64,000 nucleotides of DNA from Aquila chrysaetos chrysaetos (lineage: Eukaryota; Chordata; Aves; Accipitriformes; Accipitridae). The DNA lies in NCBI RefSeq assembly GCF_900496995.4, contig NW_024470384.1, positions 62,001 to 126,000 of the forward strand. The letters are read 5' to 3'. Position 1 is the first letter of the stretch, and every line of letters starts with the position of its first letter. A model generated the notes under the pieces. It saw only the letters and a list, made by a program, of their open reading frames with translations, searched no databases and was not told the DNA's origin. This document shows, one piece after another, positions 2,957 to 63,698 of the stretch. The position numbers and the translations under genes were made by a program.

Positions 2957-5900
2957 TTATAAACTTACACAATTGTTTTCCCAAATAGATAACGTGAAAC
3001 TTACTTAGAGGTTTCAGTTTCAAAGGGCCAGTTTCTTTAGACTTCCAATTTCCTGTTGGTGCTTTCTTTATTCTTGAATAATGAAGCCAAGGTTCTTCTC
3101 CCAGACCTTTACTGCTGTAAGTGTTGTTAAAATGACTCGATATGGTCCTTGCCGCTTCTCAGCGATTTTATATATATTCAATCTCCGGGTCGGAAGGGAT
3201 GCGCTGCTACGTCCAATTCTAAGGGTCCAGCTGCGGAGACAGACTGACGAAGTTCTTGAAAAGAATTGCTTAAAGAAATCATAACACCTTTTAAAAACAT
3301 ATCTCCAAAGGCACTCAAGGTACGCAGAACATAGGACTCTTGATACGGTCTTTCATATAACATTGCATAATGACTTAAATTTTCTTTCTCTTCTGGCTAT
3401 ACTCTGATTCTTAATAGAGCCATCGGTAAGGCTTTAACCCATGTGAGTGAGGTTTCCTGACAAATTTTACTCAACTGTTGCTTAAGGGTATAGTTCATTC
3501 ATTCTTCCCCCCCCGCCCCCCGCCACTTGCTTGTGGTCCATATGGGGTGTGATAGTCTCAACCTCTAGATAATACTTTGCTCAACTTGTCTCATACTCTT
3601 TGCTATAAAATGAGGGCCATTGTCAGGTGACATTCTTATGGGCACCCCATATTTTGGTATTATCTCTTTGAGCAAGACTTTGACTACTTCTCTCGCTTTG
3701 TTGGTGCGACAAGGGAAAGCCTCGGGCCACCCAGTGAAGATACCAACTAAAACTAGGATATATCCTTCTTTTCAAGGCAATTCTAGAAAATCAATTTGCT
3801 AATATTCCCCTAAAAAATTTCCTTATTTAATAATTCCAAAGATAATCTTATTACTGATTTGGGGATCAGTTTATACGTAAATTTCACATCCGCTTATAAT
3901 CGTTTAAACAATCTTTGTCATGTTTTACCTTCTGTTCCCCAATATACTTTGTTATGTTCAGCTCGGGTAATTTCTCTTATTATTGTGGGCGGGACTATTA
4001 TTTGACCTGTCGGTGTTACAGCCTGTCCTGTTTCATTTTGTTAGCCTGCAATCTAACAATTAATTCTTCATCTTTTTCGTTCTAATTTCGAGTTTCTTTA
4101 GGCAATTTTATACTTTTCTCTGGAACTAGTGCTAGGATGCCTTTTTCTGCAGCCTCTTTAGCAGCTTTATCGGCCAGTCGGTTACCTGCGTTAGGAACAG
4201 TCTTACCCAACTGATGTGCTTTACAGTGCATTGTCGTGGCTGCTGTTGGTTTTTGAACGGTTTCTAACAATTTCAGTATCTGTTCTGCATGCTGAATGGC
4301 GGCTCCTTGTGCAGATAAGAGTCCTCTTTCTCTCCGTTATCGCTCCATGTGCACGTACTACTCCGAAAGCATACTTTGAGTCTGTCCAAATGTTGACTCG
4401 CTTTCCTTGACTTAGTTCCAGAGCTCGAGTGAGAGCTATCAATTCAGCCTTTTGGGCAGATATCATCGAAGGCAAAGTTTGCAACGCAATTACCTCCTCG
4501 GTAGTTATTGTCTATCTCGATAAACGTTTTCCTTCACAGATTAAACAGCTTCCGTCGGTATATAGTTCCCAATCTGTTACTTCTAGTGGCACATCTCAGA
4601 GATCCGGTCGGCAGGAGTAAACTCTTTCGATTGTCTGCAAGCGGTCGCGTTCCAGTTCTCCTTTAACTCGATCGGTTGTTGAAAACGCAACAGCGGTTAA
4701 CGGTGGTACGAGTTTTTAAGTAAACGTCATCTTGTTCCGGCAGCACCACTTGGTATTTCAGCATTCTGCTAGGGGATAACCAAGGCCCCCCTTTCTGTTT
4801 TAGCGCAACAGTTATCATATGGGAAACACACAGTAATCCTTTGTCCTCAGGTGAACTTACGAGCTTCCTGGATCAGTAGCACAGTTGCAGCGACGGCTCT
4901 CCGACGACCAGAGCATCCCAGACTCACGTGATCTCATCGCTTCGAGAAGTAGGCCACAGCTCGCCCACTTGGCCCTAAATATTGGGCCGGGATACCCAGA
5001 GCTATACCTCTTCTTTCACGAGTAAAAAGTTCAAATGTCTTTGTGAGATCTGGCAGGCCTAGGGCTGGCACCCCCGTTACAGCCTGTTTCGATTCTTTGA
5101 AAGTGGCTTTCTCGGCATCAGTCCAATCCATTGCTTGAGGTTTTGAGCTGCTCGTATAAAGGTCGGACCAGCAAGCCGCAATTGATAATCTACAGGTGAC
5201 ACCACTCAACCATTCCCGGAAATGCTCGTCATTAATTTTTTTTGGTCTTAGGTTCGGGGAGACGACAAATTGCCTCTTTTCTCTCAGCTCCTAATTGTCT
5301 CTGTCCTTCTAGGATTTTAACACTCAAATAAGTGTCTTCTTTCCGGGTTCTTTGGCTTTTTTCTTTTGACACTCGATATCCACCGATTCCCAAAAAGTTC
5401 AAAAAGTTAATAGTTAACTTTGTGCATTGTTCTTCCACCTCAGCTACAATTAACAGATCATCCCTATATTTCAACAAGATTTCTTGATTATTTTCTTTCT
5501 TCCAAATCTCTCATTCTTGTGCCAATGGATTTCCAAAAATGGTAAGACTATTCTTAAAGCCTTGAGGCAAGACTGTCCACGTATAGTGTGTTTTTCTCCC
5601 AGTCTCAGGCTTTTCCCATTCAAAAGCAAAAAGCTCTTGACTATTGGGATCCAAGGGAATACAGAAAAAGGCATCTTTTCAGCCTAACACTGTGAACCAT
5701 TCTTGTTTCTCTGTCAGGGTTGTTAACAAAGTATAAGGATTTGCTACTACCGGATGAATACCTTGTACTATTTGATTTATTGCTCTGAGGAACTAATCTA
5801 TAATCTTTTTCGTTAGCCTTTTAACAGGCAAGGTCGGGGTGTTATATTTGGATTCACGTTCTATTAACAATTTACGTCTTAAAAATTTTTGTCTTATCAA

Positions 5901-6496
5901 TACTAACCCTTTCCGACTTTCCGGTTTTAGGGGGTATTGTTGAACTCTTACCGGATTCGATCCTGGCTTTAAATCAGTTCTCACAGGTTCTGCTTTTTGG
6001 ATTTACCGGGAACTTCCCAGCCCAGACGATTGGAATTACAGTGTTATACTTTGACCGGTATAATCTTCGGCTTTCGGTAACCATCCTGTAACAACAAAGC
6101 CACTGCTTCGATACGTTTAGTTTCTGGAATTAAAATTTTAACCTCTCCAGTTTTTAATTTAATTTCTGCCTCTTAAGTTCTCCAGTAGATCTCTCCTTAA
6201 CCGGAGCTTAGGAGAATTTGGCACGTACAAAAACTGCTGAGTGACCCGTTGCTTTCCTAATTTCATTGTTCAAGATTTAAAGAAGGGTCTAGTTTCTCGT
6301 TCACTTGTTGCACCACCACCACCAATTTCTTCAAAACTTAACTCTCCCTCTAAGGTATCTAAAACTGAAAAGGCGACTCTAGTGTCAATTCAAATTCAAT
6401 TTTCTGTTCTCCCAGTTTAGCTGTAACCAGAGGTTCTGCTGGGAGACTCCCCTCCGGTCCCCGTCAGATACGTTCACTTAAAAAGAACAAATCGAC
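2957..6496 (-). pseudogene. ERV pro-pol remnant, copy B (RT, RNase H, integrase)
   Basis: This is the more complete pol copy of the ERV, on the minus strand. The protease/pre-RT stretch (6,496-6,000) is heavily broken. RT blocks lie at 5,984-5,793, 5,674-5,471 and 5,477-5,232 (YRDD motif), with the connection at 5,209-4,934. RNase H follows at 4,484-4,082. The integrase core, with GWPEAFPCRTNKAR and SPDNGPHF, lies around 3,740-3,590, and its C-terminal part, with WVKALPMALLRIR, runs from about 3,480 to the gap. Frameshifts and stops separate the blocks. From 3,751 rightward it matches copy A at an almost constant 3,750-bp offset, with scattered substitutions and single-base indels in homopolymers. 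No env is visible. Confidence 0.85.
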
Positions 6497-6721
6497 CTAT
6501 GGCACTTTATTCCATTTACTCTCTCTCCTACAAAACAACAGTAATTGCGATATAGCATTATAACTCAAAGTTCTGTTTGTTTCCCATTTTTCCTGCAGTT
6601 CACCCCAGTGTGCCAATAAACTTCCCAACGGTGATGTTTTTGGTACCTTTTCATCAGCAGTTATATTTCCTGCGCTCTCATTCTTAAACAGCTTTGCTAA
6701 TGCCATGATACTTACATACAT
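6497..6721 (-). pseudogene. gag matrix-like fragment of the ERV
   Basis: A 74-codon minus-strand open stretch lies between the leader and pol. It contains the pattern SPLGSLLAHW and later LLFCRRESKW, which resembles the start of gammaretroviral matrix proteins (P-L-x-x-x-L-x-x-W, then a cysteine and tryptophan). The rest of gag (capsid and nucleocapsid) is missing: only about 500 bp separate this block from the RT start, so most of gag has been deleted. The assignment rests on position and weak motif resemblance only. Confidence 0.45.
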
Positions 6722-7054
6722 TCAAATACCAAATAATACCAAACAAATGCAAATGACAGTTGTCCCAAATAATACACAAAGTCCAACCCAGCAATAACTT
6801 TCGCTTATGACTTACGGGCGGACGCCTAGGCTTCCAATGCAAACGGGTACCCTCCGAGCCCCAACCCTGCGAAGCTTTCGCCGCGCCTCAGGGGCAGGCT
6901 TTCCAAACAAATTCCAAAGAAGCAGCGCCTTACCTTTTTTCCAGGGAACGCTGCGAGGAGCTTTGCGAGTCGAGGGTGATGGTTCTCCCCGAGAATACCT
7001 CGGTGCCGGCCGGAGTTCGATCAACACTCGATCTCGTCCAGTCTCACTCGCAAG
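6722..7054 (-). other. ERV leader region (between PBS and gag)
   Basis: GC-rich sequence between the putative primer-binding site and the gag scrap, in the position of a retroviral 5' leader. No open frame in it is convincing. Its composition differs from the AT-rich pol that follows. A packaging signal cannot be recognised by eye. Confidence 0.45.
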
Positions 7055-7072
7055 GTCCCGTCTGGGTCGCCA
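7055..7072 (-). other. Candidate retroviral primer-binding site
   Basis: On the minus strand the 18-mer TGGCGACCCAGACGGGAC begins with the TGG expected to pair with a tRNA CCA end and lies just after the presumed LTR end. It partly resembles the PBS for tRNA-Trp, but the primer cannot be fixed by eye. About 10 bases separate it from the last CA dinucleotide, more than usual. Confidence 0.4.
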
Positions 7073-7082
7073 AAACCGTTAC

Positions 7083-7434
7083 TGAAATCCGGAATAAAAC
7101 TCCTTAACGCCAACGTGAAGTTAAGAAGCGGGCACTTCGTTTATCGCAGCGCTGGGGAGACGGGGGATCACTCCTCCAGAGGCGTGTCCCGCCTAGTATC
7201 AAAATCCATCAGTTTTTACAGACTTTTTCTGTCAGGTCATTGTTACATAAGCTCTTTCCATAAAAATGCATACTGTGCTCGTTCTTAAATTTAACCTTTA
7301 TAAGGACTGGTCCTTTGATTATGTAACCTTATCAATATTCTTATTCAAAAACAATCATTGGTCAGTTACACTTTTAGCTCTACTGACTGGAATCTTCGAT
7401 ACTCAAATCAAGACAGGAAGGATAAGGGGGTCCA
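7083..7434 (-). mobile_element. Truncated 5' LTR of the ERV
   Basis: This minus-strand segment has LTR architecture: a CCAAT box, a TATA box about 55 bp further on, a poly(A)-like GATAAA about 155 bp after that (near 7,140), and a putative PBS just beyond. The U3 end is cut off abruptly at 7,434, where the CpG satellite begins. No LTR partner is visible on the other side of pol, so the boundaries are inferred. Confidence 0.55.
7295..7361 (-). promoter_or_regulatory. LTR core promoter (CCAAT and TATA boxes)
   Basis: On the minus strand CCAAT (7,361-7,357) is followed by CCTTATAAAGG (7,305-7,295). The spacing is normal for a retroviral U3 promoter. Nothing intact lies downstream, so it is probably a relic. 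Confidence 0.5.
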
Positions 7435-8279
7435 AGTCGACGAGTCGACGCATCGTCGGAGTCGTCGAAGCCGACGAGTCGACGCGTTGTGGAAGCCGTC
7501 GAGTCGATGCGTCGTCGGAGCCAACGAGTCGTCGAGTCGACGCGTCGTCAGAGCCGACGAGTCTTTGAAGTCGACGCATCATCGAAGTCGACGAGTCGTC
7601 GAAGTCGACGCGACGTCAGAGTCGACGCGACGTCAGAGTCGACGCGACGTCAGAGTCGACGCGTCGTCGGAGTCGTCAAGTCGACGCGTCGTCGAATTCG
7701 ACGAGTCATCGAGTCTTCGAAGTCGACGAGTCGACGAGTCGTCGGAGTCGTCGAGTCGACGCGTCCCTGGAGTCGACGCGTTGTCGGAGTAGTCGAGTTG
7801 CTGAAATCGTCGAGTCATCGGAGTCGTCTAGTCGTCGGAGTCGACAAGTCGTCGCGTCGACGAGTCGTCATGTCGTCGAGTCGTCGTGTCGTCGAAGCCG
7901 ACGAGTCGTCGTGTCGTCGAGTCGTCGTGTCGTCGAAGCCGACGAGTCGTCGAGTCGACGAGTCGACGGAGTCATCGAGTCGACGCGTCGTCGAAGTCGT
8001 CGAAGTCGTCAAAGTCGTCGAGTCGTCGAAGTCGTCGAGTCGTCGAGTCGTCAAAGTCGACGAGTCGTCAAAGTCGACGAGTCGTCGAGTCATCAAAGTC
8101 GACGAGTCGTCGAGTCGTAAAAGTCGACGAGTCGACGTGTCGTCGGAGTCGACGAGTCGTCGAGTCGACGAGTAGTCGAGTCGACGTGTTGTCGGAGTCG
8201 TCGAGTCGACGAGTCGTTGAGCCATCGGAGTCGATGAGTCGTCGAAGCCGACGAGTCGACGCGTCGTCGGAGTCAACGA

Positions 8280-8343
8280 GTCGACGCGTCGTCGAGTCGT
8301 CGGAGTCGACGCGTCGACTCGGACGACTCGACGACGCGTCGAC
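8280..8343. repeat. 64-bp near-perfect palindrome at the satellite turning point
   Basis: Each base from 8,280 to 8,311 pairs with its partner from 8,343 down to 8,312, except one G/G mismatch (8,302 and 8,321). The centre is the perfect 18-mer GAGTCGACGCGTCGACTC at 8,303-8,320. There is no spacer. It marks the exact point where unit orientation flips. Confidence 0.9.
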
Positions 8344-10264
8344 GCGTCGACTCGGACGACTCGGACGACGCGTCGAATCGAGGACTCGGACGACGCGTCG
8401 AATCGAGGACTCGGACGACGCGTCGAATCGACGACTCCGTCGACTCCGACGACTCGACAACTCGACGACTCGTCGACTCCGACGACTCCACGACTCCGAC
8501 GACTCGACGACTCCACGACTCCGACGATTCGTCGACTCGACGACTCCGACGACTCCACGACTCCGACGACTCCACGATTCCGACGACTCGACGACTCCAC
8601 GACTCCGACGACTCCACGATTCCGACGACTCGAGACTCATCGACTCGTCGACTCCGACGACTCCACGATTCCGACGACTCGAGACTCATCGACTCGTCGA
8701 CTCCGACGACTCGACGACTCGAAACTCGTCGACTCCGACGACTTGACACTTGTCGACTCCGACGACTCCACGACTCGTCGACTCGAGACTCGTCGACTCC
8801 GACGACTCGTCGACTCGACCACTCGAGACTCGTCGAATCCGACGACTCGTCGACTCGACCACTCGAGACTCGTCGAATCCGACGACTCGTCGACTCGACC
8901 ACTCGAGACTCGTCGAATCCGACGACTCGACGACTCGACCACTCGAGACTCGTCGACTCAACAACTCGAGACACGTCGACTCCGACGACTCGACGACTCA
9001 TCGACTCGACGACTCGAGACTCGTCGACTCGACGACTTCGACGACTCAACGACTTCGACGACTTCGACGACTCGACGACTTCGACGACTCGACGACTTCG
9101 ACGACTCGACGACTTCGACGACTCGACGACTTCGACGACTCGACGACTTCGACGACTCGTCGAATTCGACGACTCGACGACTTCGACGACTTCGACGACT
9201 CGACGACTTCGACGACTCGACGACTTCGACGACTCGACGACTCGACGACTCGACGACTCGACGACTTCGACGACTCGACGACTCGTCGACTTTGACGACT
9301 TCGACGACTCGACGACTTCGACGACTTCGACGACTTTGACGACTCGTCGACTTCGACGACTTCGACGACTCGACGACTTCGACGACTTCGACGACTCGAC
9401 GACTTCGACGACTTCGACGACTCGACGACTTCGACGACTTCGACGACTCGACGACTTCGACGACTTCGACGACTCGACGACTTCGACGACTCGACGACTC
9501 GAGACTCGACGACTTCGACGACTCGACGACTTCGACGACTCGACGACGCGTCGACTCGACGACTCCGATGACTCGGACGACGCGTCGACTCGACGACTCC
9601 GATGACTCGGACGACACGTCAAATCGACGACTCCGACGACACGTCAAATCGACGACTCCGACGACTCGACACTCGTCGACTCCGACGACTCGTCGACTTC
9701 GACGACTCGACGGCTCGTCGACTCGTCGACTCCGACGACGCGTCGAATCGACGACTCGGACGACGCGTCGAATCGACGACTCGGACGACGCGTCGAATCG
9801 ACGACTCGGACGACACGTCGAATCGACGACTCCGTCGACTCCGACGACTCCACGACTCCGACGACTCGACAACTCGTCGACTCCGACGACTCCACGACGC
9901 CGACGACTCGTCGACTCCACGACTCCGACGACTCGACGACTCCACGACTCCGACGACTCCTCGATTCCGACGACTCGAGACTCATCGACTCGTCGACTCC
10001 GACGACTCCACGACTCGAAACTCGTCAAATCCGACGACTCGACGACTCGTCGACTCCGACGACTCATCGACTCGACGGCTCGAGACTCGTCGACTCCGAC
10101 GACTCGACGGCTCGAGACTCGTCGACTCCGACGACTCGACGACTCGAGACTCAGCGACTCCGACGACTCGACGACTCGACGACTCGAGACTCGTCGACTC
10201 CGACGACTCGTCGACTCGAGACTCGTCGACTCCGACGACTCGAGACTCGACGACTCGACGACTC

Positions 10265-10502
10265 GAGTCTCGAGACTCGACGACTCGAGACTCGACGACT
10301 CGACGACTCGAGTCTCGAGACTCGACGACTCGAGACTCGACGACTCGACGACTCGAGTCTCGAGACTCGACGACTCGAGTCTCGAGACTCGACGACTCGA
10401 GACTCGACGACTCGACGACTCGAGTCTCGAGACTCGACGACTCGACGACTCGAGTCTCGAGACTCGACGACTCGAGACTCGACGACTCGAGTCTCGAGAC
10501 TC
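10265..10502. repeat. Sub-block with seven copies of a 14-bp palindrome
   Basis: The self-complementary 14-mer GAGTCTCGAGACTC occurs seven times, starting near 10,265, 10,310, 10,355, 10,377, 10,422, 10,452 and 10,489, separated by CGACGACTCGAGACTCGAC-type units. It is a locally amplified variant within the CpG satellite. Confidence 0.85.
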
Positions 10503-11696
10503 GACGACTCGAGACTCGACGACTCGAGTCTCGTCGACTCCGACGACTCGAGACTCGACGACTCGACGACTCGAGTCTCGTCGACTCCAACGACTTGAGA
10601 CTCGACAACTCGACGACTCGTCGACTCGACGACTCGAGTCTCGTCGACTCCGACGACTCGTCGACTCGACGACTCGACGACTTCGACGACTCGACGACTT
10701 CGACGACTCGACGACTCGTCGACTCGACGACTTCGACGACTCGACGACTCGACGACTTCGACGACTCGACGACTTCGACGACTCGACGACTCGACGACTT
10801 CGACGACTCGACGACTTCGACGACTCGACGACTCGACGACTTCGACGACTCGACGACTTCGACGACTCGACGACTCGACGACTTCGACGACTCGACGACT
10901 TCGACGACTCGACGACTCGACGACTCGACGACTTCGACGACTCGACGACTCGACGACTCGTCGACTCTTCGACTTCGACGACTCGACGACTCCACGACTT
11001 CGACGACTCGTCGACTCGACGACTCCACGACTCCGACGACTCGACGACTCCACGACTCCGACGACTCGTCGACTCGACGACTCGACGACTTCGACGACTC
11101 GTCGACTTTGACGACTTCGACGACTCGTCGACTCGTCGACTTCGACGACTCGACGACTCGACGACTCGACGACTTCGACGACTCGACGACTCGACGACTC
11201 GACGACTTCGACGACTCGACGACTCGACGACTTCGACGACTCGACGACTCGACGACTTCGACGACTCGACGACTTCGACGACTCGACGACTTCGACGACT
11301 CGACGACTTCGACTCGACGACTTCGACGACTCGACGACTTCGACGACTCGACGACTCGACGACTCGACGACTTCGACGACTCGACGACTTCGACGACTCG
11401 ACGACTCGACGACTTCGACGACTTCGACGACTCGACGACTTCGACGACTCGACGACTTCGACGACTCGACGACTTCGACGACTCGACGACTTCGACGACT
11501 CGACGACTTCGACGACTCGACGACTTCGACGACTCGACGACTTCGACGACTCGACGACTCGTCGACTCGACGGCTTCGACGACTCGTCGGCTTCGACGAC
11601 TCGTCGACTTCGACGACTCGTCGGCTTCGACGACTCGTCGACTTCGACGACTCGACGACTTCGACGACTCGATGACTCGTCGACTTCGACGACTCG

Positions 11697-14600
11697 CTCT
11701 CTCGTGCGGTACACGCAGGAGTTAGACAGAGGGTGAGAGAAAGAAGGTAGGAAACAAGCCAGAAGGATTGAGGAAAACGAGACAGCAATCATGACAAAGG
11801 GATGGAGAGAGAAAAACCAGCTCCGGGCTGCAGGATGAGAAAAAAGGCCAGGGAGCGGGATAGAGGGGTATAATGCAACAGCAAGCCAGGCAGGGAGATA
11901 TAGCGAGAAACGATGGAACAGGCAGTAGTATGGGCATGTACAGACAAAAAGTTAAGGGGAGGGTGGAAGACAGAGAGAATAAGAGAAAAGGGACAAGGCA
12001 TAAATGGAGAAAGTAATATTAGAGACAGAGAGAGGCAGAGAGTGACAGGACCGAGGCAGAGAGATGGAGAAAGAAAAAAAATGGTGATGGGTAGCAGGCC
12101 AGAGGGACAAGGAAAGGCAGGAGGAAGGACAGCTGGATATAGAAAACAGGTAAGAGACAGAGAGCCAGAAAGTGGCATACTGCAAAAGAGAGTGGGATGG
12201 GGATCAGGATGCTGGCAGAGGGAGGCAACGAGAGCAACAGAGAAAATGGGGACAGAGAGTGGGACAGAAAGTTAAGCAACAAATAATAGGGCCAGGGAGC
12301 AGGACAGAGGAAGAGAGACAGTGACAGGGGGACAGGTAAGACAACAGATCATTAGAGAAAGCAAATGAAAGGAACAGCACAGAGGGTCACAGAGAAAAAG
12401 AGAGGGAGAACAAAAAGGGAAAAATAAGATGAGGGAGAAGGACTGAGCAGCAGAGAGAAAAAGGACGGAGACAGAAAACAAAGACTGGAGGCAGAACACA
12501 AAGGGAAAGATTGACAAGGACAGGGAGTGGGATAAAGGGATGGAAAATGAAGAAATAGCGATGGGCAGCAGGAGAGAGGAAGAGAGGGAAAGAGCAAGAA
12601 GAGCAAAATAAGGACTATGACAGAAAGGTGTAGAGAGAAAGACCGGGACATGTCAGAAGGGTGGAAAGGAAAAAACAGGGATGGGGAGCAAGACAGCGTG
12701 ATAGGGAGGAAGAGGGATGCAAGGATACGGCACGACACAGGTACAGGGAAGAAGAAAGAATGACACGAGAGAAAGCGGGGCATATGGAGCAGGAGAGACG
12801 GAGAACGAAAAAATGGTAACGTGCAGAAGAACAGAAATACAGAAAATTAAAAAATACTTATAAGGAGCAGGACAAAGGGACAGAGCAAGACGAAAAATCA
12901 ATGGGGAGAAGGATGGGTAACACACAGCAAGATACAGGGGGAGTGAGAGCAAGGAAACACACAGCAGGACAGAAGGATAAAGAAAGAAAAAATAGGGAGA
13001 GAAAGAAAAGCTGAGTAATCAACAGAGAAGGGGGGGAAGGGAACAGGCATGGGCAGCAGGACAGAGACACGGAGAAAGAAAAAACAGAGACAAGGACAGA
13101 GGGATAGAGAGGCAAAGAGAGGGAGGGGACCGAGACAGTGGGGTGTAAACAGAGAAGAACGGCACACAGTACTCAAGATAGCAGAGTGAGAGGTACAGGG
13201 AAGCAGAAAGAATGACACAGAGGAAACAAGGGGGATGGGGACCAGGTCAGAGAGCTGGAGAAAGACAAAATACGGCTGGGGAGCAGGATGGGAGAATGGA
13301 GCCAAAAGAGATAAATTGGAAACAGGGCAGTGGGATGCAGACAGCAAAAATAACAATAGGCAACAGGACCGAGAAATTGACAGTGAAATGACGGACAGGG
13401 AACAGGATAGAGGAATGCAAAGAAAAAACACTGATGAGCAACAGGACAAAGAATATAAAGAATAAGAAGGAGGAAAAAAGGAAAAAGGGAGAGAGAAAGT
13501 AATGGGGATAGAGAGTGTGAGACACGGAGAGACAAAAAGCAGTACGAGGAACGGGACTGAGGGACTGGCGGCAGCGGAGGGAACCAGATGCGGATTAAGA
13601 CAAAGAGATGGAGGGGGGGAAAAAACGGATAGAGATAGAGCAAGAAAAAGTAGGGGCAAAGTAGGGAAAAGAGAAAAGAAAAAAGGGACACCTGGCTGGA
13701 CAGGCAGCTATAACTAGAAACAAGGAGACAGGCAAGCGGGACAGAGGGTTGAAGGCAGAATAAACTGTGAGAGGAAGCAGGACGGACAGTCAGACAAAAA
13801 AAGGGGCAGGGAGCAGCACTGAGAAACGGAGAAGGAAGCATTAGGGGCAGAGGGAGGAAAAGGCAGGTTGGAGAAAGGACACAGAGCAAAAGAGAATGAC
13901 AGAACTTGGACAAGGTGTGGGAGAAAGAAAAACCAGTGATGAGCAGCAGGCCAGAGGCAGAGGTGGCACAGGGAAGGAAGGACAAGAGGAAGGAGATAGG
14001 GATACAGAAAACAAGCGAGGGACAGGGTATAAGAAAATGGGATACAGAGAAAAAGAGAGGGATGGGGAGAAGGACACTGGGATAGAAAGAGAATGACAGG
14101 AAGAATGACAAGGAGATGGAGCCAGAGGAAAAACAGGGACCAAAAGCAGGACAGAGAAATGAAAACAGAAAATTAGGGTCAGGGAGCGGGACAGAGGGGT
14201 GGAGAGACAACAAAGGACTCGAGGATAACAACAGAGAAAGAGGGAGGGAGAGAGGGAAGGAGGGATGGGCAGCAGCATGGTGGGATGGAGAAAGAGAGGG
14301 AGGGGGAGTGGGGCAGAGAAATAGAGAAAGAAAATACAGCGATGGGGAGCAGGACAGAGGACTAGAAAGAGAAAAATAAGACAAGAGAGAAGACCGAGGA
14401 GCAAAGAGAGAGGAAAGGTCAAAAGAAAAGGTCAGAGAGATAGAGAAATCAAGAAAAAGAGAGATGGGACAAGAAGATGTAGGGTCAGTAAACAGGACAG
14501 AGATGGGGTAGAAAGAGAGAACAAACAAAGGAGGAATGACAACTATGACAGAGCACAGGGCATACAGACAGAGACAGAAAAAGGACAGGGAATGGGAAAG

Positions 14601-15225
14601 AAAGAAAGGTTCAGATCTGTACAAAGAGACCAAGAAGGGGGAAAAAAAAGCAATGGGCTAGAGCACAGAGAGGGGAAGAGGAGAAAAAAAAGGGCCAGGG
14701 AGCAAGATAGAGGAGGAGAGAAGGGAAAAAAAGGAGAGCCAGGTGGGCATGGAGATACAGCAAGAAACAACTGGGCAGGCAGCAGAATAGAGAAATAAAG
14801 ATGGAAAAAGATGGGGACAGGAAGCAGGACAGAGGAACAGCGAGAGGAAACAAGGGGCAGGCAGCAGGACAGCGGTGGAGAAAGAAGCATTGGGGCAGAA
14901 GGCTAGAAAGAGAAAAAAGAAAGAGAGAAAGCAGAATGCAGGATGGGGTGAGGGGGAAAGAAGGACAAAGAGCAGGACACAGTGTCAGAGAGGAACAGTG
15001 AGCGAGACAAGGTGATACAGAGAGGAAAAAAAGGGCCAGGGAAACAGGACAAAGTGAAAGATGGGCAAAATTGAAAGACATAGAGCAGGACAGAGACAGA
15101 GTGAGAAAAGATAGTGACAAGGAACAGGACAGAGCATCAGAGAACAAAAAAAACTGCAGAGCGAATAGGACAGAGAAATGGAGAGGGGAGACAAGGAGAA
15201 GGACACAGAAAAGGGCTAGGGTGGG
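11697..15225. repeat. Purine-rich satellite, about 41-42 bp period
   Basis: Degenerate tandem DNA built around GGACAGGGAGCAGGACAGAG followed by GGATAGAGAAAGAAAAAAT. The plus strand is almost all A and G with scattered C and T. The minus strand reads as Leu/Ser/Phe/Pro-rich open frames, including one of about 486 codons at 14,633-13,173, which arise from composition and are not genes. Individual units diverge strongly, which suggests an old array. Period and composition recall the 41-42 bp repeats known from bird microchromosomes, but membership of a named family is not shown. Confidence 0.8.
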
Positions 15226-20877: not shown

Positions 20878-21312
20878 CGGCCTGGTGACCTTTTGACCCC
20901 TGACCCCATGACCTTTGACCCCCAACCCGGCAACCTTTTATGCCTGTGACCTTTGACTTTTTACCATGGTTGCCTTTGACTTTTTTACCCCGGTGACCTT
21001 TTAACCTGAGCCCAATGACCTTTGACCCTGAGCTCGGACCTTTTACCCCTGCGACCTTTGACCCCTGACCCTGTGTGGCCTTTGACCCCGATCCAATGAA
21101 CTTTTTACCCCTGTGACCTTTCACTCCTGATCCAGTGACCTTTTACCCCTGACCCTGTTGACCTTCTAACTTTGACCCCAACTCCATGACTTTTGACCCC
21201 TGACTCCGGTGACCTTTGAGCTTTGCCCCTGACCCTGGTGAGTTTTGACCTCTGGGCCTGGTTTACCTGTGGCCTCTGAGCCCCACGACCTTTGACCTCC
21301 AAGCCCTTGCCT
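20878..21312. repeat. TGACCTTTGACC minisatellite (DR1-like nuclear-receptor half-site array)
   Basis: A 435-bp array of degenerate TGACCTTTTGACCCC, TGACCTTTGACCCC and TGACCCTG words. On the minus strand several copies match AGGTCA half-sites in direct repeat with one-base spacing, for example GGGTCAAAGGTCA near 20,908, 21,015 and 21,052. Other copies have two-base spacing or a decayed half-site. It is tandem DNA first; receptor binding is inferred from motif match only. Confidence 0.8.
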
Positions 21313-35691: not shown

Positions 35692-37764
35692 ATGGTGAAC
35701 TAAAACAGAGATGTAGAAAGAAAATGTAAAAAGCATTAGCAAGAAGAAATAAGAAATAGTTAAAAATAAAGACACCAAAAGGAAAAAAGTAGGCATAGAA
35801 AGAACATTGAAAAAGCAACAGTCATTAGGAAAATAAAGGAAAAAAAAAAACAGGGACAGCATACTAAAAGAAAGGTAGAAAGAACATTTAAAAAGCAACA
35901 GCACTAAGGAAAGACAAGAAATAACTAAAAGAAAGGACCACAAAATAAAGTCAGAAAATGGGATGAAAGTAGAAAATTTTAAAAGTGACAGAAATAAAGG
36001 GAAAAAATTAAAATATAGGGACAGCCAAGTAAAATGGAGACATAGTAAGAAAGAAGCAGCAAGAGCAGTCAGGAAAGATATGAAATAATTAAAAATAAAG
36101 ACCTGGAAGAAAAAAAGTAAGTGTAGGAAGAACATTTAAAAAGTGATGGGCATTAGGGAAATAAAGGGAAAAACTAAAATATGGACAGCATACTATAACA
36201 GAAACATAAAAACAACATTTTAGAAGCAACAGCACAACGGAAAGACAAGAAATAATTAAAAGAAAAGACAGCAATGTAAAGACAGTGAATGGGATAAAAG
36301 TAGCAAAATTTTAAAGCAAAAGGGATTAGGGAAATTAACAGAAAAAAATTAAAAATGAGTGACAGCAAACTAAAACGGAGACATAGAAAGAAAATTTTAA
36401 AAGCGAGGGCACTAAGGAAGGACAAGAAATAATTACAAAAAAACAGCAAAGGGAATAAAAGTAGGCAGAGAAAGAACTTTTAAAAGACAATAGGCATTAT
36501 GGAAATAAAGGAAAAAATTATGAAATAGGGACAGTGAACTAAAACAGATGTAGAAAGAAAATTTTAAAAGCGACAGCACTGAGGAAAGACAAGAAATTAT
36601 TAAAAGAACAGAGAGCGAAATAAAGACAGTGAACAGGACAAAAGTAGACAAAATTTTGAAAGCAACAGTTATTAAAAAATAAGGAAAAAATTAAAGTTAG
36701 TGACAACTAAAATGGAGACATAGAAAGAAAATCTGAAAAGTGATGGGAAAGAAGCAAGAGAAGAAAGAATTAAAGACAGCAAAGAGGAAAAAAGCAGGCA
36801 TAGAAAAAACTTTTTAAAAGCAAGGGGTATTAGGGAAATAAAGAGAAAAACTAAAAAACAGGGACAGCAAACTAAAACAGACATGTAGAAAGAATATCTA
36901 AAAAGTGAGAGCACTAAGGAAAGACAAGAAATAATTGAAAAATAAGGGCAGGCAAATAAAGACAGTGAGCAGTATAAAAGAAGACAGAACATTTTAAAAG
37001 CAACGGTGATTAACAAAATAAGGAAAAAATAGTGACAATGAACTGAAACGGAGGCGTACAAAAAAATTTTTAAAGTGATGGCACTAAAAAACCAAAAAAT
37101 ATTTTAAAATACAGCGAAGGAGATAAAAGTAGAAAATATGGAATGCAGAGGGATTAAGAGAGGAAAGAACTAAAAAATAGAGATAGCAAAATAGAAGGCA
37201 AACATAGATAGAAAATTTTAAAAGCGATGGCACTAAGGAAAGAGAAGACAAGATTTTAAACAGACAGCCAAGGGAATAAAAGTAGGCATAGAAAGAACAT
37301 TCAAAAAGCGAGGGGGATTAGGAAAATAAAGGGAAAAACTAAAAAATAGGGACAGCAAACTAAAGCAGATATAGAAAGAAAATCTAAAAAGCAAGGGCAC
37401 TAAAGGATGACAAATAATCAAAAAAAATAAAGACATCAACAGGAAAAAGTAAGCATAGAAAGAACAATTTAAAAGCAATAGGAATTGGGGAAATAAAGGA
37501 AAAATTATGAAATAAGGACAGCAAACTAAAACAGATCCAGAAAGAAAATTTTAAAAGTGAGGGCACTAAGGAAAGACAAGAAATAATTAAAAATAAAGAC
37601 ATCGAAGGGAAAAAAGTAGGCATAGAAAGAACATTGCTAAAGTGATGAGCATTAGGGAAATAAAGGAAAAAATAAAAAATAGGGACAGCAGACTAAAATA
37701 GATGCAGAAAGAAAATTTAAAAAGTGAGGGCACCAAGGAAAGACAAGAAATAATTATAAAAAGC
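35692..37764. repeat. 84-bp AT-rich satellite, part 2
   Basis: Continuation of 32,371-34,179 on the other side of the ERVK-like insertion. The marker AAAGAAAATTTTAAAAGC and its variants recur every 83-84 bp. Confidence 0.85.
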
Positions 37765-50954: not shown

Positions 50955-53900
50955 CTGCAGGACAGAGGTGAAGGTAGCCACAAGGGAAAGGGCCCAGAAC
51001 ACAAGAGAGGACAAAAGGGACAGCCAGCTGGACAGGGGATATAACAAGAGTCAATGGGACAGGGGGTACAACAGAGGGATCATCAGAGAAAGGGACAGGG
51101 AGCAGGACAGCACTGGGGGAAAAAACCAGCTGTGATGAACAGCAGGACAGAGAGACAGAGAAAGAAAAAATACTGAGGAAGAGAGAGAGAGGAAAGAAGG
51201 AGAGCCAGCTGGGCAGGGGGATATAACAAGAATCAATGGGTCAGGGAACAGGGCAAAGAGAGAAAGAAAAAATAAGAAAAAAGACAGAGGGGACAGCAAG
51301 AGGCAAAAAAAGGGACAGGGATTTGGCCAGAGATAAGAGGAAGAACCAGTAGGAACAGAAGAAAAGAGATAAAAAAGGGAGACAGGGAGCAGGACAGAGC
51401 TGGAGAAAGCAGCAGTAGGGACAGAGGGGTAGAGAGAGATAAAGACAGAAGAAAGGACAGAGAAACAAAAATAAGGACAGGAAATAGGACAGAGGTGGAG
51501 GGAAAAAACTGGGATGAGCAGTATGACAGAGGGAGTAAAAAAAAAAATAGGGGCAGGGAGCAGGACAGAGAGATATAGTGAGAAACCATGGGACAGAAAG
51601 GACAGTGACAAGATAAAAAGCAAGAGGGAGCAGGACAGAGAAAAGGGTGGGGAGGGGGGAGGACAGAGAAACAGGGAAAGAGGGTCAGAGAGCAGGACAC
51701 TGGAATAGAACAAGAAAAAGAAGGACAGGGAGCAGGACATAGAGAAAGAAAGGGAACAGGACAAGGGGACTGAATAAGAGAGGAGGGTGCAGATCAGGAC
51801 AAAGAGATGGAGAAGGAGAAAAAACAGCGATGGAGAAAGAAGAAATAGGGACACAGAGCCCTACAGAGGCATTGAGAAAACAAGTGGGAGACAGGGAGAC
51901 AGAAAATAGGACAGAGAGAAAAAGACCAGAAAAGGGAGCTGGACTGAGGGGCGAGGGGGCAGGGGGGGATTAGGACAGATTAACAGAGAGGGAAACAGAG
52001 GGATGGGGACCAGGACAGTGGGACTGAAAGACAGAAAGAAGGGGAGCAGGACAGCGAGGTGGAGTGAGGAAAAAACACAGATGGGAACAGACAGAGGAAA
52101 AAGCAAGAAAGAGCTGAATAGGAAGGATAGTGGGATATAGATATAGAAAGAAAAAATAGCGACGGAGAGCAGGGAAGAGGGATAGAGAGAAAAACAAGGA
52201 CAGGAAGAAGGACAGAGGCATAGAGAGAGAAAGAGAGCCATTGGGGGACCAGGACACTGGGACAGAGACAGAAAGGAACAGGGTGCAGGACACACGAATA
52301 CAGAGAAAAACAGATACACAGGGAAGTGGGGGGGGGAAAAACAGAAAGAAAGGGACAGTGAGCAGGACAAAGGGATGGAGAGAAAAAGAGAAGCATGGGG
52401 AGCAGGGCAGCAAGCTGGAAAGAAAAGATACTGCTGGGGAGCACAACAGAAGGACAGAGCACAAAAGAGAAGAATGAAAAGCAGGGCAGTAGGATGCAGA
52501 AAGAAAAAATAGTCATAGGGAACAGGACAGATGGATAGAGAGGAAAAAAAGGAAGGACAGATGGATTGTCAGAGAAAGAGAGGGACAGGGAGCAGGTCAG
52601 AGTGGCAGAAAAAAAGGACACAGCAGGACAGATGAATAGAGGAAATAATACTGATGGGGAGCAGGACAAAGGGATGGAGACAAAAAGGAGGGGAAGGGTG
52701 AACAGGGGATAGAGAAAGAGGGGCTAGAGAATGGGACAAAAAGAAGGACAGGGAACAGGACAGGGGGACTGAGAAAAGAAAAGAAGTATGCAGATGAGGA
52801 CAAAGAGATGGAGAAGGAAGAAACAGCGATGGGCTGCAGGACAGAGACAGAGGAAGAGAAAAATGGGTTGGGAAGCAGGACAGAGGAAGACAGAGAGGAA
52901 AAAAGGGACAGCCAGCTGGACAGGGGGATATAGTGAGAAACTATGGAACAGGCGGGAGGACAAAGGCAGAAAAAATAGGGAGAGAAAGCAAGACAGAGGG
53001 ACGAGGAAAAAAAAAGGAGGAGGGAGCAGGACAGAGATGGAGAAAGAAGCAATAGGGACAAAAGGATAGAGAAGGAAAAAGACAAACTGGATGCAGGACA
53101 GAGGGACAGAAAAAGAGAATGACAGGACCAGGACAGGGAGGTGGAGAAATCAAAAAATAGCAATGGAGAAATCAAAAAATAGCAATGAGCAACAGGACAG
53201 AGAGACAGACCAACAGACGAGGAGCACGACATGAGGGATAAAGACCAGGACAGGTAATGGGGTGGGGAGACAAGGAGCACAACAGACGGATAGAAAGAAA
53301 ACAAGAGGGGAGGAGAGCAATACAGCACTGTCGTGGAAGAGGGATGGAGCAGGCAGAGCAAGAACAGAGAAAAACAGAGGTACAGGAAGTAGAAGAAACA
53401 TGGCAGAGAGAGAGAGAGAAAGGGAGGCTTTGGGAGCAGGGGGGAGAGAGGGAGAGGGAACAAAATAGCAATGGACAGAAGAGAGAGATGGATAATTAAA
53501 CAATACCTTTAGGGAGAGAACAGAGGGACAGAGTGAGAGAAAAGAGGGATGGGGAACGGCATAAACCAAAACAGAAGGAAAGAGCAGGGGGAAAGGACAA
53601 GAAGACAGTGGGTGGAGAGAGAAAGAAACTGGGATAGACAAAGAGGAACCCAGAGAAGGACAGAGATGGCAAAATAAAAACCAGTGAAGAGTAGCAGGAC
53701 AGACAGATGGAGCAAGAAAAAAAAATAGGGCCAGGGAGCAATACAGAGAAAAGGGAGGAAAGAAAGAGACACGGAGCAGGACAGAGGAAAAAAAATACTG
53801 ATGGGGAGCACGACAGAGGAAGAGAAAGAGGAAAAAGGGACAGCCAGCTGGACAGATGGATATAGCAAGAAATGATGGGATGGACAGCGGGACAAAGGCA

Positions 53901-55140
53901 GGACAGAGATGGACAAAGAAACATTAGCGACAGAAGGATAGAGAAAGAAAAACACAGACGAGAAGGACAGAGGAATAGACAAAAAGAGTGACAGGACCAG
54001 AACAGAGAGAGGGAGAAAGAAAATCCAGTGATGAGCAGCAGGACAGAGGGAGAGAGAGGGGAAGAGAAGGGCAGGAAGACAGCCAGACACAGAAAACCGG
54101 TGAGGGACAGGGAGCGAGACAATGGGATTCAGAGAACAAGAGAGGGACAGGGAGCAGAACACTGGGACAGAGAGAGAATGAGAGTGACGGGGAGAACAGC
54201 AGCGAGTTGGAGCAAGAGAAAAACAGGGACAGAGAGCAGGATGAAGATGGAGCAATACATAATAGGGACATGGAAAAGGACAGAGCAATAGAGACAAAAA
54301 GAGAGGAACAGGTAGGACAACAGAGGACTGGAAAAAGAAAAGACAAGGGACAGGGAACCGCACAGAGGGACAGAGAGAAAAAGAGTGATGGGGATATAAA
54401 GAATAGGGACACAGAGCAGCACAGAGGCATAATAGGATGCACAAGGATAACAACAAAGCAACAAAGACAGGGACAGGGAGCAGAAGAGAGGGATGGGGAG
54501 CAGGGCAGAGGGACAGAAAGAGAAAAATAAGAAGAGGAAGGAGAACTAAGGAACAGAGAGAGAAACAAAGGTACAGGGAAAAGGATGGAGAGATGGAAAA
54601 AACAGTAAAAATAGGAATGAAGTGTCCTGCAGAGAGATGGAGAAATTTAAAATAAACTGACAGGGACCGCGATGGAGGGAGAAAGAGAGGGACAGGCAGA
54701 AGGACAGAGGATAGAGGAATATGGGGATGGGGAGCACAACATAAAGACAGATGGAGAATAAAGAGGACAGGGAACAAGCCAGAGAGATTGAGAAAAAAAG
54801 GAATGCAGATCAGGACAAAGAGATGGAGAAGGGAAAAGTGGTAATGGGCTGCAGGACAGAAATGGAGATAGACAAAAAGAGGGACAGGGAGCAGGACACA
54901 AGAACAGAGAGAAGAGAAGAGCAGAGATAGAGGGAAAGAAAAAAAGACAGAGGAAAAGAGAGGCTCAAGAAGCCACACAGAGGGACAGGGAGCCAGGCAG
55001 TCAGATGGACAAGCAAAGAGAGATAGAGGGATGAAGGACAGAGAGAGACGGTGGCAGAGACAAACAGAGAGATGGGCGGGGATCTGGAGGGGTGGCGGAT
55101 GCAGAGGGGGGCAGGGAGAGACCAGGATGCAGATGAGTGA
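50955..55140. repeat. Purine-rich satellite, large block
   Basis: Some 4.2 kb of GGACAGGGAGCAGGACAGAG-type tandem DNA. The minus-strand frame 54,978-53,509 stays open for 489 codons of Leu/Ser/Pro/Phe only because stops are rare in the unit. If the exons at 55,169-55,289 and 50,811-50,954 belong to one gene, this block would be its intron. Confidence 0.8.

Positions 55141-59088: not shown

Positions 59089-63698
<4,610 letters not shown>

Follow-up and report, generated by a model that had tools for sequence, protein, structure and literature searches.

A CpG-dense tandem array at one locus of the Aquila chrysaetos chrysaetos assembly that looks like a local repeat expansion

Array, flanks and contig setting

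The window, a stretch of 64,000 nucleotides from the genome of Aquila chrysaetos chrysaetos, corresponds to bases 62001–126000 of contig C92 (NW_024470384.1; 367,739 bp). Tandem Repeats Finder bounded a tandem array at 7435–11696 of the window (4262 bp; period 8, 517.6 copies), coordinates identical to those proposed in a sequence-only reading of the same DNA. The extreme CpG density described in that reading was borne out. The array contained 928 CpGs, with an observed/expected ratio (o/e) of 2.43 and a GC content of 60.3%, and the o/e in the remainder of the window was 0.389. The density had been put at about 14 CpG per 60 bp; it was indeed high, but the mean over the array was 13.06. In sampled 1-kb windows, 207–232 CpGs were counted inside the array and at most 170 elsewhere on the 306 kb of the contig that were read. 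Intervals between CpGs were commonly 3 bp (406/927), 5 bp (232/927) or 6 bp (140/927). The units were mostly 8–9 bp long, with best periods of 8, 17 and 25 bp, and the words TCGACGAC and TTCGACGA occurred 200 and 75 times, respectively, on the plus strand.

On its left, the array bordered the long terminal repeat (LTR) of a retroviral remnant. A genome search with a 415-bp query gave 444 candidates, 40 of which were scored; 39 of those lay elsewhere in the genome. Since 38 of these 39 matches ended at positions 410–413 of the query and 21 started at 56–60, the LTR was placed at approximately 7078–7434 on the minus strand, its last base probably falling within a few bases of the array. The degraded remnant itself (2957–7077, minus strand) lay outside the array. 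Separate pieces of it matched the Pfam families RVT_1, RT_RNaseH_2, RNase_H and rve, the second and the last of these below the curated cut-offs, and a fifth piece had no Pfam match. A 500-N gap (2457–2956) was located 4.5 kb left of the array. A retroviral stretch found on either side of the gap (1–2456 and 3751–6205) was about 98.5–98.7% identical, possibly a false assembly duplication. On the 306 kb read, no second copy of this LTR turned up apart from a weak match of 60 bp, and the far side of the retrovirus carried no remnant of the array; insertion of the retrovirus into the array is thus no more than possible.

On its right, the array was bounded by purine-rich, CpG-poor repeats (11697–15000, plus strand), where the CpG o/e was 0.40 over the first 500 bp and 0.20 over the next 500 bp. 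Strongly purine-skewed repeats with a GC skew of approximately 0.5, an AT skew of approximately 0.7 and loose periods near 40 bp were observed at 12001–15000 and 51001–55000. The window also contained short tandem repeats of TGACCTTTGACCCC-like units (20946–21262), which we take to resemble direct repeats of nuclear-receptor half sites, and a 2-kb A-rich array (35698–37762) with a 167-bp period, 67% matches and 0.35 CpG per 60 bp. Exons of a neuronal ELAV-like gene were located about 48 kb right of the array (59605–62158, minus strand). They encoded RRM halves (Pfam), and the first of them matched HuD, HuC and ELAV-like protein 1 best (solved structures: HuD and HuC).

The 306 kb of the contig consisted of mixed ERV-bearing DNA followed, beyond approximately 118 kb, by DNA of mostly 60–78% GC, and no N run occurred from the array to the right end. 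By its likeness to the compartmented dot chromosomes of chicken, as these are described in PMC9974502, the 368-kb contig resembles part of a dot microchromosome. It carried a second CpG-dense array outside the window (C92:15132–18813, 3.7 kb), with CGGCT-type units in a 5-bp phase, a best period of 45 bp, 8.5 CpG per 60 bp and an o/e of 1.24; a GC-rich stretch adjoined it on the right. Because its units were unrelated to those of the array at 7435–11696, this contig seems to have gained CpG-dense arrays on two occasions.

Internal architecture of the array

The array had been described as a simple repeat of 8–9 bp units. The unit length was correct for most units, but the array was not a single simple repeat: its first 0.9 kb was inverted, and it comprised several unit types arranged in blocks. 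The orientation switched at approximately 8316, with AGTCG/GTCGTC units on the plus strand before this point and CGACT/GACGAC units after it. The left block (7435–8316), with units in minus orientation, made up the first fifth of the array. The main part (8317–11696, plus strand) was divided into 351 tokens, of which CGACGACT (115), TCGACGACT (70), CGTCGACT (35) and CCGACGACT (30) were the commonest, next to other units. At the switch lay a near-perfect palindrome (8260–8380), which folded as single-stranded DNA at −60.2 kcal/mol, compared with −45.4 kcal/mol for shuffled sequences (0/200 shuffles as good). Of the six segments folded, including the palindrome, four of the remaining five were also better than all 200 shuffles; the segment 7500–7640 was not (z = −0.81, 39/200 shuffles as good).

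Two blocks of the main part were homogeneous in 8+9-bp units (9036–9540 and 10681–11570, both plus strand) and had an exact 111-bp word in common (9049–9159 = 11409–11519). A triplet of GCGTCGAATCGA words at 25-bp spacing (8370–8431, plus strand) recurred 1370 bp away at 9740–9801, and each triplet was followed by mixed units and then by one of these homogeneous blocks. Further exact duplicates, among words with two to four copies, measured 118 bp (9348/9374) and 102 bp (10233/10278). The left block was diverged, with 58–97% of its 24-mers unique per 200-bp step, yet its 39–52 CpG per 200 bp equaled the numbers in the homogeneous blocks. Through most of the left block, TG and CA together numbered 8–10 in each 200-bp step, versus 0–2 in most steps of the last kilobase. 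Among common unit variants, A to T and T to C dominated and CpG transitions were rare, so that most changes were not strong-to-weak. We take this block pattern to reflect growth through local duplications on several scales, together with an inversion.

Distribution in the genome and in the literature

The assembly searched comprised 1,233,704,830 bp in 144 contigs. An exact 15-mer of the unit had 95 matches in it (90 forward, 5 reverse), all 95 inside the array. A 70-mer had 60 scored matches, and none of these lay outside the array either. These results concern close copies in assembled DNA, as exact words miss diverged relatives and the 70-mer search skips simple or very common words. They gave no support to a genome-wide satellite family, and the label "satellite" given to the array in the sequence-only reading had to be dropped in favor of a single 4.3-kb locus. 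Its statement that the array was not recognized as a described bird satellite met no contradiction among the matches listed from open-licence publications, where no repeat was recognized as the array, though the 8-mer string itself occurs in print. A preprint surveying vertebrate genomes reports that 94% of the recurrent satellite families were each confined to a single species (PMC13320880), which makes a private repeat as such ordinary. What is unusual about the array is its CpG density, together with the apparent persistence of that density.

Spectrum of changes at CpG sites

CpG-dense tandem DNA is expected to decay in a vertebrate that methylates its genome. The retroviral pair beside the array served as a control and showed this bias: CpG transitions were found at 12 of 185 sites and other changes at 18 of 2269 sites, a per-site ratio of 8.2. 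The ratio was 4.0 for the eight repeat pairs on the contig with at least 90% identity, including the retroviral pair, and 2.0 for all 30 pairs with at least 80% identity, where saturation is expected. One CpG-rich pair among the eight (C92 33958–36413) had 7 CpG transitions at 447 sites; its 1965 other sites had 16 changes, and the ratio was approximately 1.9.

In the array, a variant was scored as a change if its parent word was at least five times as common. Relative to other changes, the per-site frequency of CpG transitions was 0.77, 1.00 and 0.99 for word lengths of 9, 11 and 13, respectively, bearing in mind that variants are copied along with the array and thus are not independent, and that repair or assembly errors dilute a CpG bias. 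At word length 11, there were 29 CpG transitions at 1452 sites and 33 other changes at 1660 sites, and the proportion of transitions to transversions at CpG was 29:22, versus 12:2 for the two retroviral copies. Counted separately, the main part gave 0.44–1.10 and the second array 0.11–0.31; the left block alone gave 1.35–2.67, based on 3–7 CpG transitions versus 2 other changes. An uncalibrated pairwise count gave 0.52 on the left and 0.48 on the right.

The detector responded to simulated CpG bias. Multipliers of 1, 4, 8 and 12, equivalent to true per-site ratios of 0.67, 2.7, 5.3 and 8.0, were returned as 0.49, 5.3, 7.3 and 10.4 at word length 11 and as 0.47, 2.5, 4.3 and 10.6 at word length 13; at word length 9, the two strongest multipliers overshot to 27 and 24. 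A version requiring variants to be ten times rarer was given no weight, its simulations being meaningless. A test with singleton variants (array ratios 0.81–1.28) was discarded, as simulated biases from none to twelve-fold all returned approximately 0.5–1.5; it is blind to CpG bias, since a CpG change that recurs is no longer a singleton.

The spectrum of the array suggests weak germline methylation or changes made by repair, and fits either of these more than youth alone. The sequence-only reading had left three options, namely that the array is very young, is protected from methylation or is maintained by recombination. The change spectrum indirectly favors protection or repair-driven turnover and makes youth by itself less attractive.

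Origin and maintenance

On balance, we lean towards a single-locus minisatellite which grew locally from a CGA-rich seed, underwent inversion and kept its CpGs through weak germline methylation. A short seed would have been enlarged in place by repeated local duplication, whether through slippage, unequal exchange or gene conversion, and at least one fold-back or template switch would have inverted the first 0.9 kb. A search for the seed on the 306 kb of the contig found, outside the array, no more than seven overlapping 10-mers of the array in any one cluster. CpG-dense islands are often weakly methylated in the germline, and weak germline methylation would be the simplest reason why CpGs seem to change no faster than other bases of the array. 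The array would then behave like an orphan CpG island made of repeats, probably without a dedicated function. Counting against such protection, gene-rich microchromosomes of zebra finch tend towards more methylation according to a preprint (PMC13060365). The contrast in CpG change between the array and ordinary DNA also narrows once the wider sets of repeat pairs are taken as the control, and the left block by itself gave a ratio above 1, on few changes.

The main alternative, possible though in our estimate less likely, is that the array is methylated like its surroundings but is very young and constantly re-homogenized, most substitutions stemming from error-prone break repair without CpG bias. 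The homogeneous blocks, the exact duplicates of up to 118 bp and the drop in TG+CA between the left block and the last kilobase are in line with youth, and the repair of human meiotic breaks is reported to be mutagenic for substitutions (PMC7615360). This alternative depends on an assumed repair spectrum, however, and it sits poorly with the left block, which is diverged and nevertheless as rich in CpG as the homogeneous blocks.

A reading based on recombination is made attractive by the statement in PMC11708917 that birds, which have no PRDM9, show more recombination close to CpG islands and transcription starts. Parts of dot chromosomes might grow unrelated CpG-dense arrays that escape germline methylation, adopt open chromatin and attract meiotic breaks, and these breaks would in turn drive expansion, resulting in a self-sustaining tandem CpG island. 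We regard this scheme as speculative and rather improbable; if it were true, the two unrelated arrays on the contig would be two cases of it. A further proposal appears more doubtful still: local recombination would be frequent, and the strong GC-biased gene conversion that comes with it would remove CpG-to-TpG changes while methylation is not lacking. High recombination and GC-biased conversion have been proposed for dot chromosomes (PMC12954441), and the scarcity of strong-to-weak changes and CpG transitions among common unit variants would suit them. Non-CpG singletons, however, showed no clear weak-to-strong excess (e.g. 5/1120 versus 2/442 sites), in a small set and with a detector of low power.

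An assembly or contamination artifact is the least probable of these explanations. The 500-N gap, the possible false duplication across it and the HiFi dropout to which dot-chromosome DNA is described as subject (PMC13320880) speak for an artifact; against it stand the N-free DNA from the array rightward, the direct junction of the array with an LTR whose family has many copies in the genome, and an irregular block structure unlike machine stutter. An array 25-mer also had no exact match in a prokaryote and a viral collection, by which a bacterial or viral origin was rejected; a megablast of the last 1.1 kb versus plasmids was empty too, but carries little weight as simple repeats were filtered. 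A coding repeat was dropped because the 8/17/25-bp periods are not multiples of three, despite long open frames in several frames on both strands, and an RNA gene was rejected as the window contained no Rfam match at gathering score and no tRNA.

If the array does lack a CpG excess of change directly beside a retroviral remnant with an eight-fold excess, nature would provide a test of two questions: can a high CpG density by itself keep germline DNA unmethylated, and do islands of this type seed recombination in birds? Sequence of the kind found at this locus also makes the assembly of dot chromosomes difficult.

Comparison with known systems

The array has the appearance of a repeat that expanded locally, rather than that of a new satellite spread through the genome. 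Members of a satellite family are numerous and occupy several loci or form very long arrays; within the assembled DNA, the array occupied one locus of 4.3 kb. By form it is a minisatellite of mixed 8/9-bp units, as minisatellites are short-unit tandem arrays of 0.1–20 kb at one locus. It also has the sequence composition of a CpG island, for which a GC content above 50% and a CpG o/e above 0.6 over 200 bp are required (array: 0.603 and 2.43 over 4262 bp). Like CpG islands, it is a discrete block with an o/e far above the threshold and CpG-poor DNA on its right; unlike them, it is built of tandem units, and the likeness is one of sequence composition.

MS32 and CEB1 are hypervariable vertebrate minisatellites (VNTRs) in which one end is more homogeneous than the other. 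The array shares with them short units, kilobase length, a single locus, internal variant blocks and one more homogeneous end. It differs from them in containing an inverted block, and it is much denser in CpG than is known for minisatellites of this type.

Tandem DNA with dyad symmetry is also represented among avian satellites, such as CNM with a 41-bp unit and sate-21 with a 21-bp unit on the chicken W (PMC9974502). The array differs from both in unit length and sequence, its periods of 8, 17 and 25 bp being distinct from the 41 bp that defines CNM, and these satellites are described as forming long arrays in several or large regions, in contrast to the single locus here.

For chicken dot chromosomes, Hron et al. 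2026 (PMC12954441) described a strictly local repeat expansion termed "sequence stuttering", and noted variation in short intergenic repeats as well. The array resembles these cases in its strictly local expansion, its imperfect tandems and a contig that looks like a dot chromosome. Sequence stuttering as reported there concerns mainly introns and blocks of tens to hundreds of bases, whereas the array consists of 8–9 bp units flanked by a retroviral remnant on one side and purine-rich repeats on the other; the main text of that paper gave no hits for the word "CpG". The closest known kinds are minisatellites and, on the dot chromosomes of birds, sequence stuttering.
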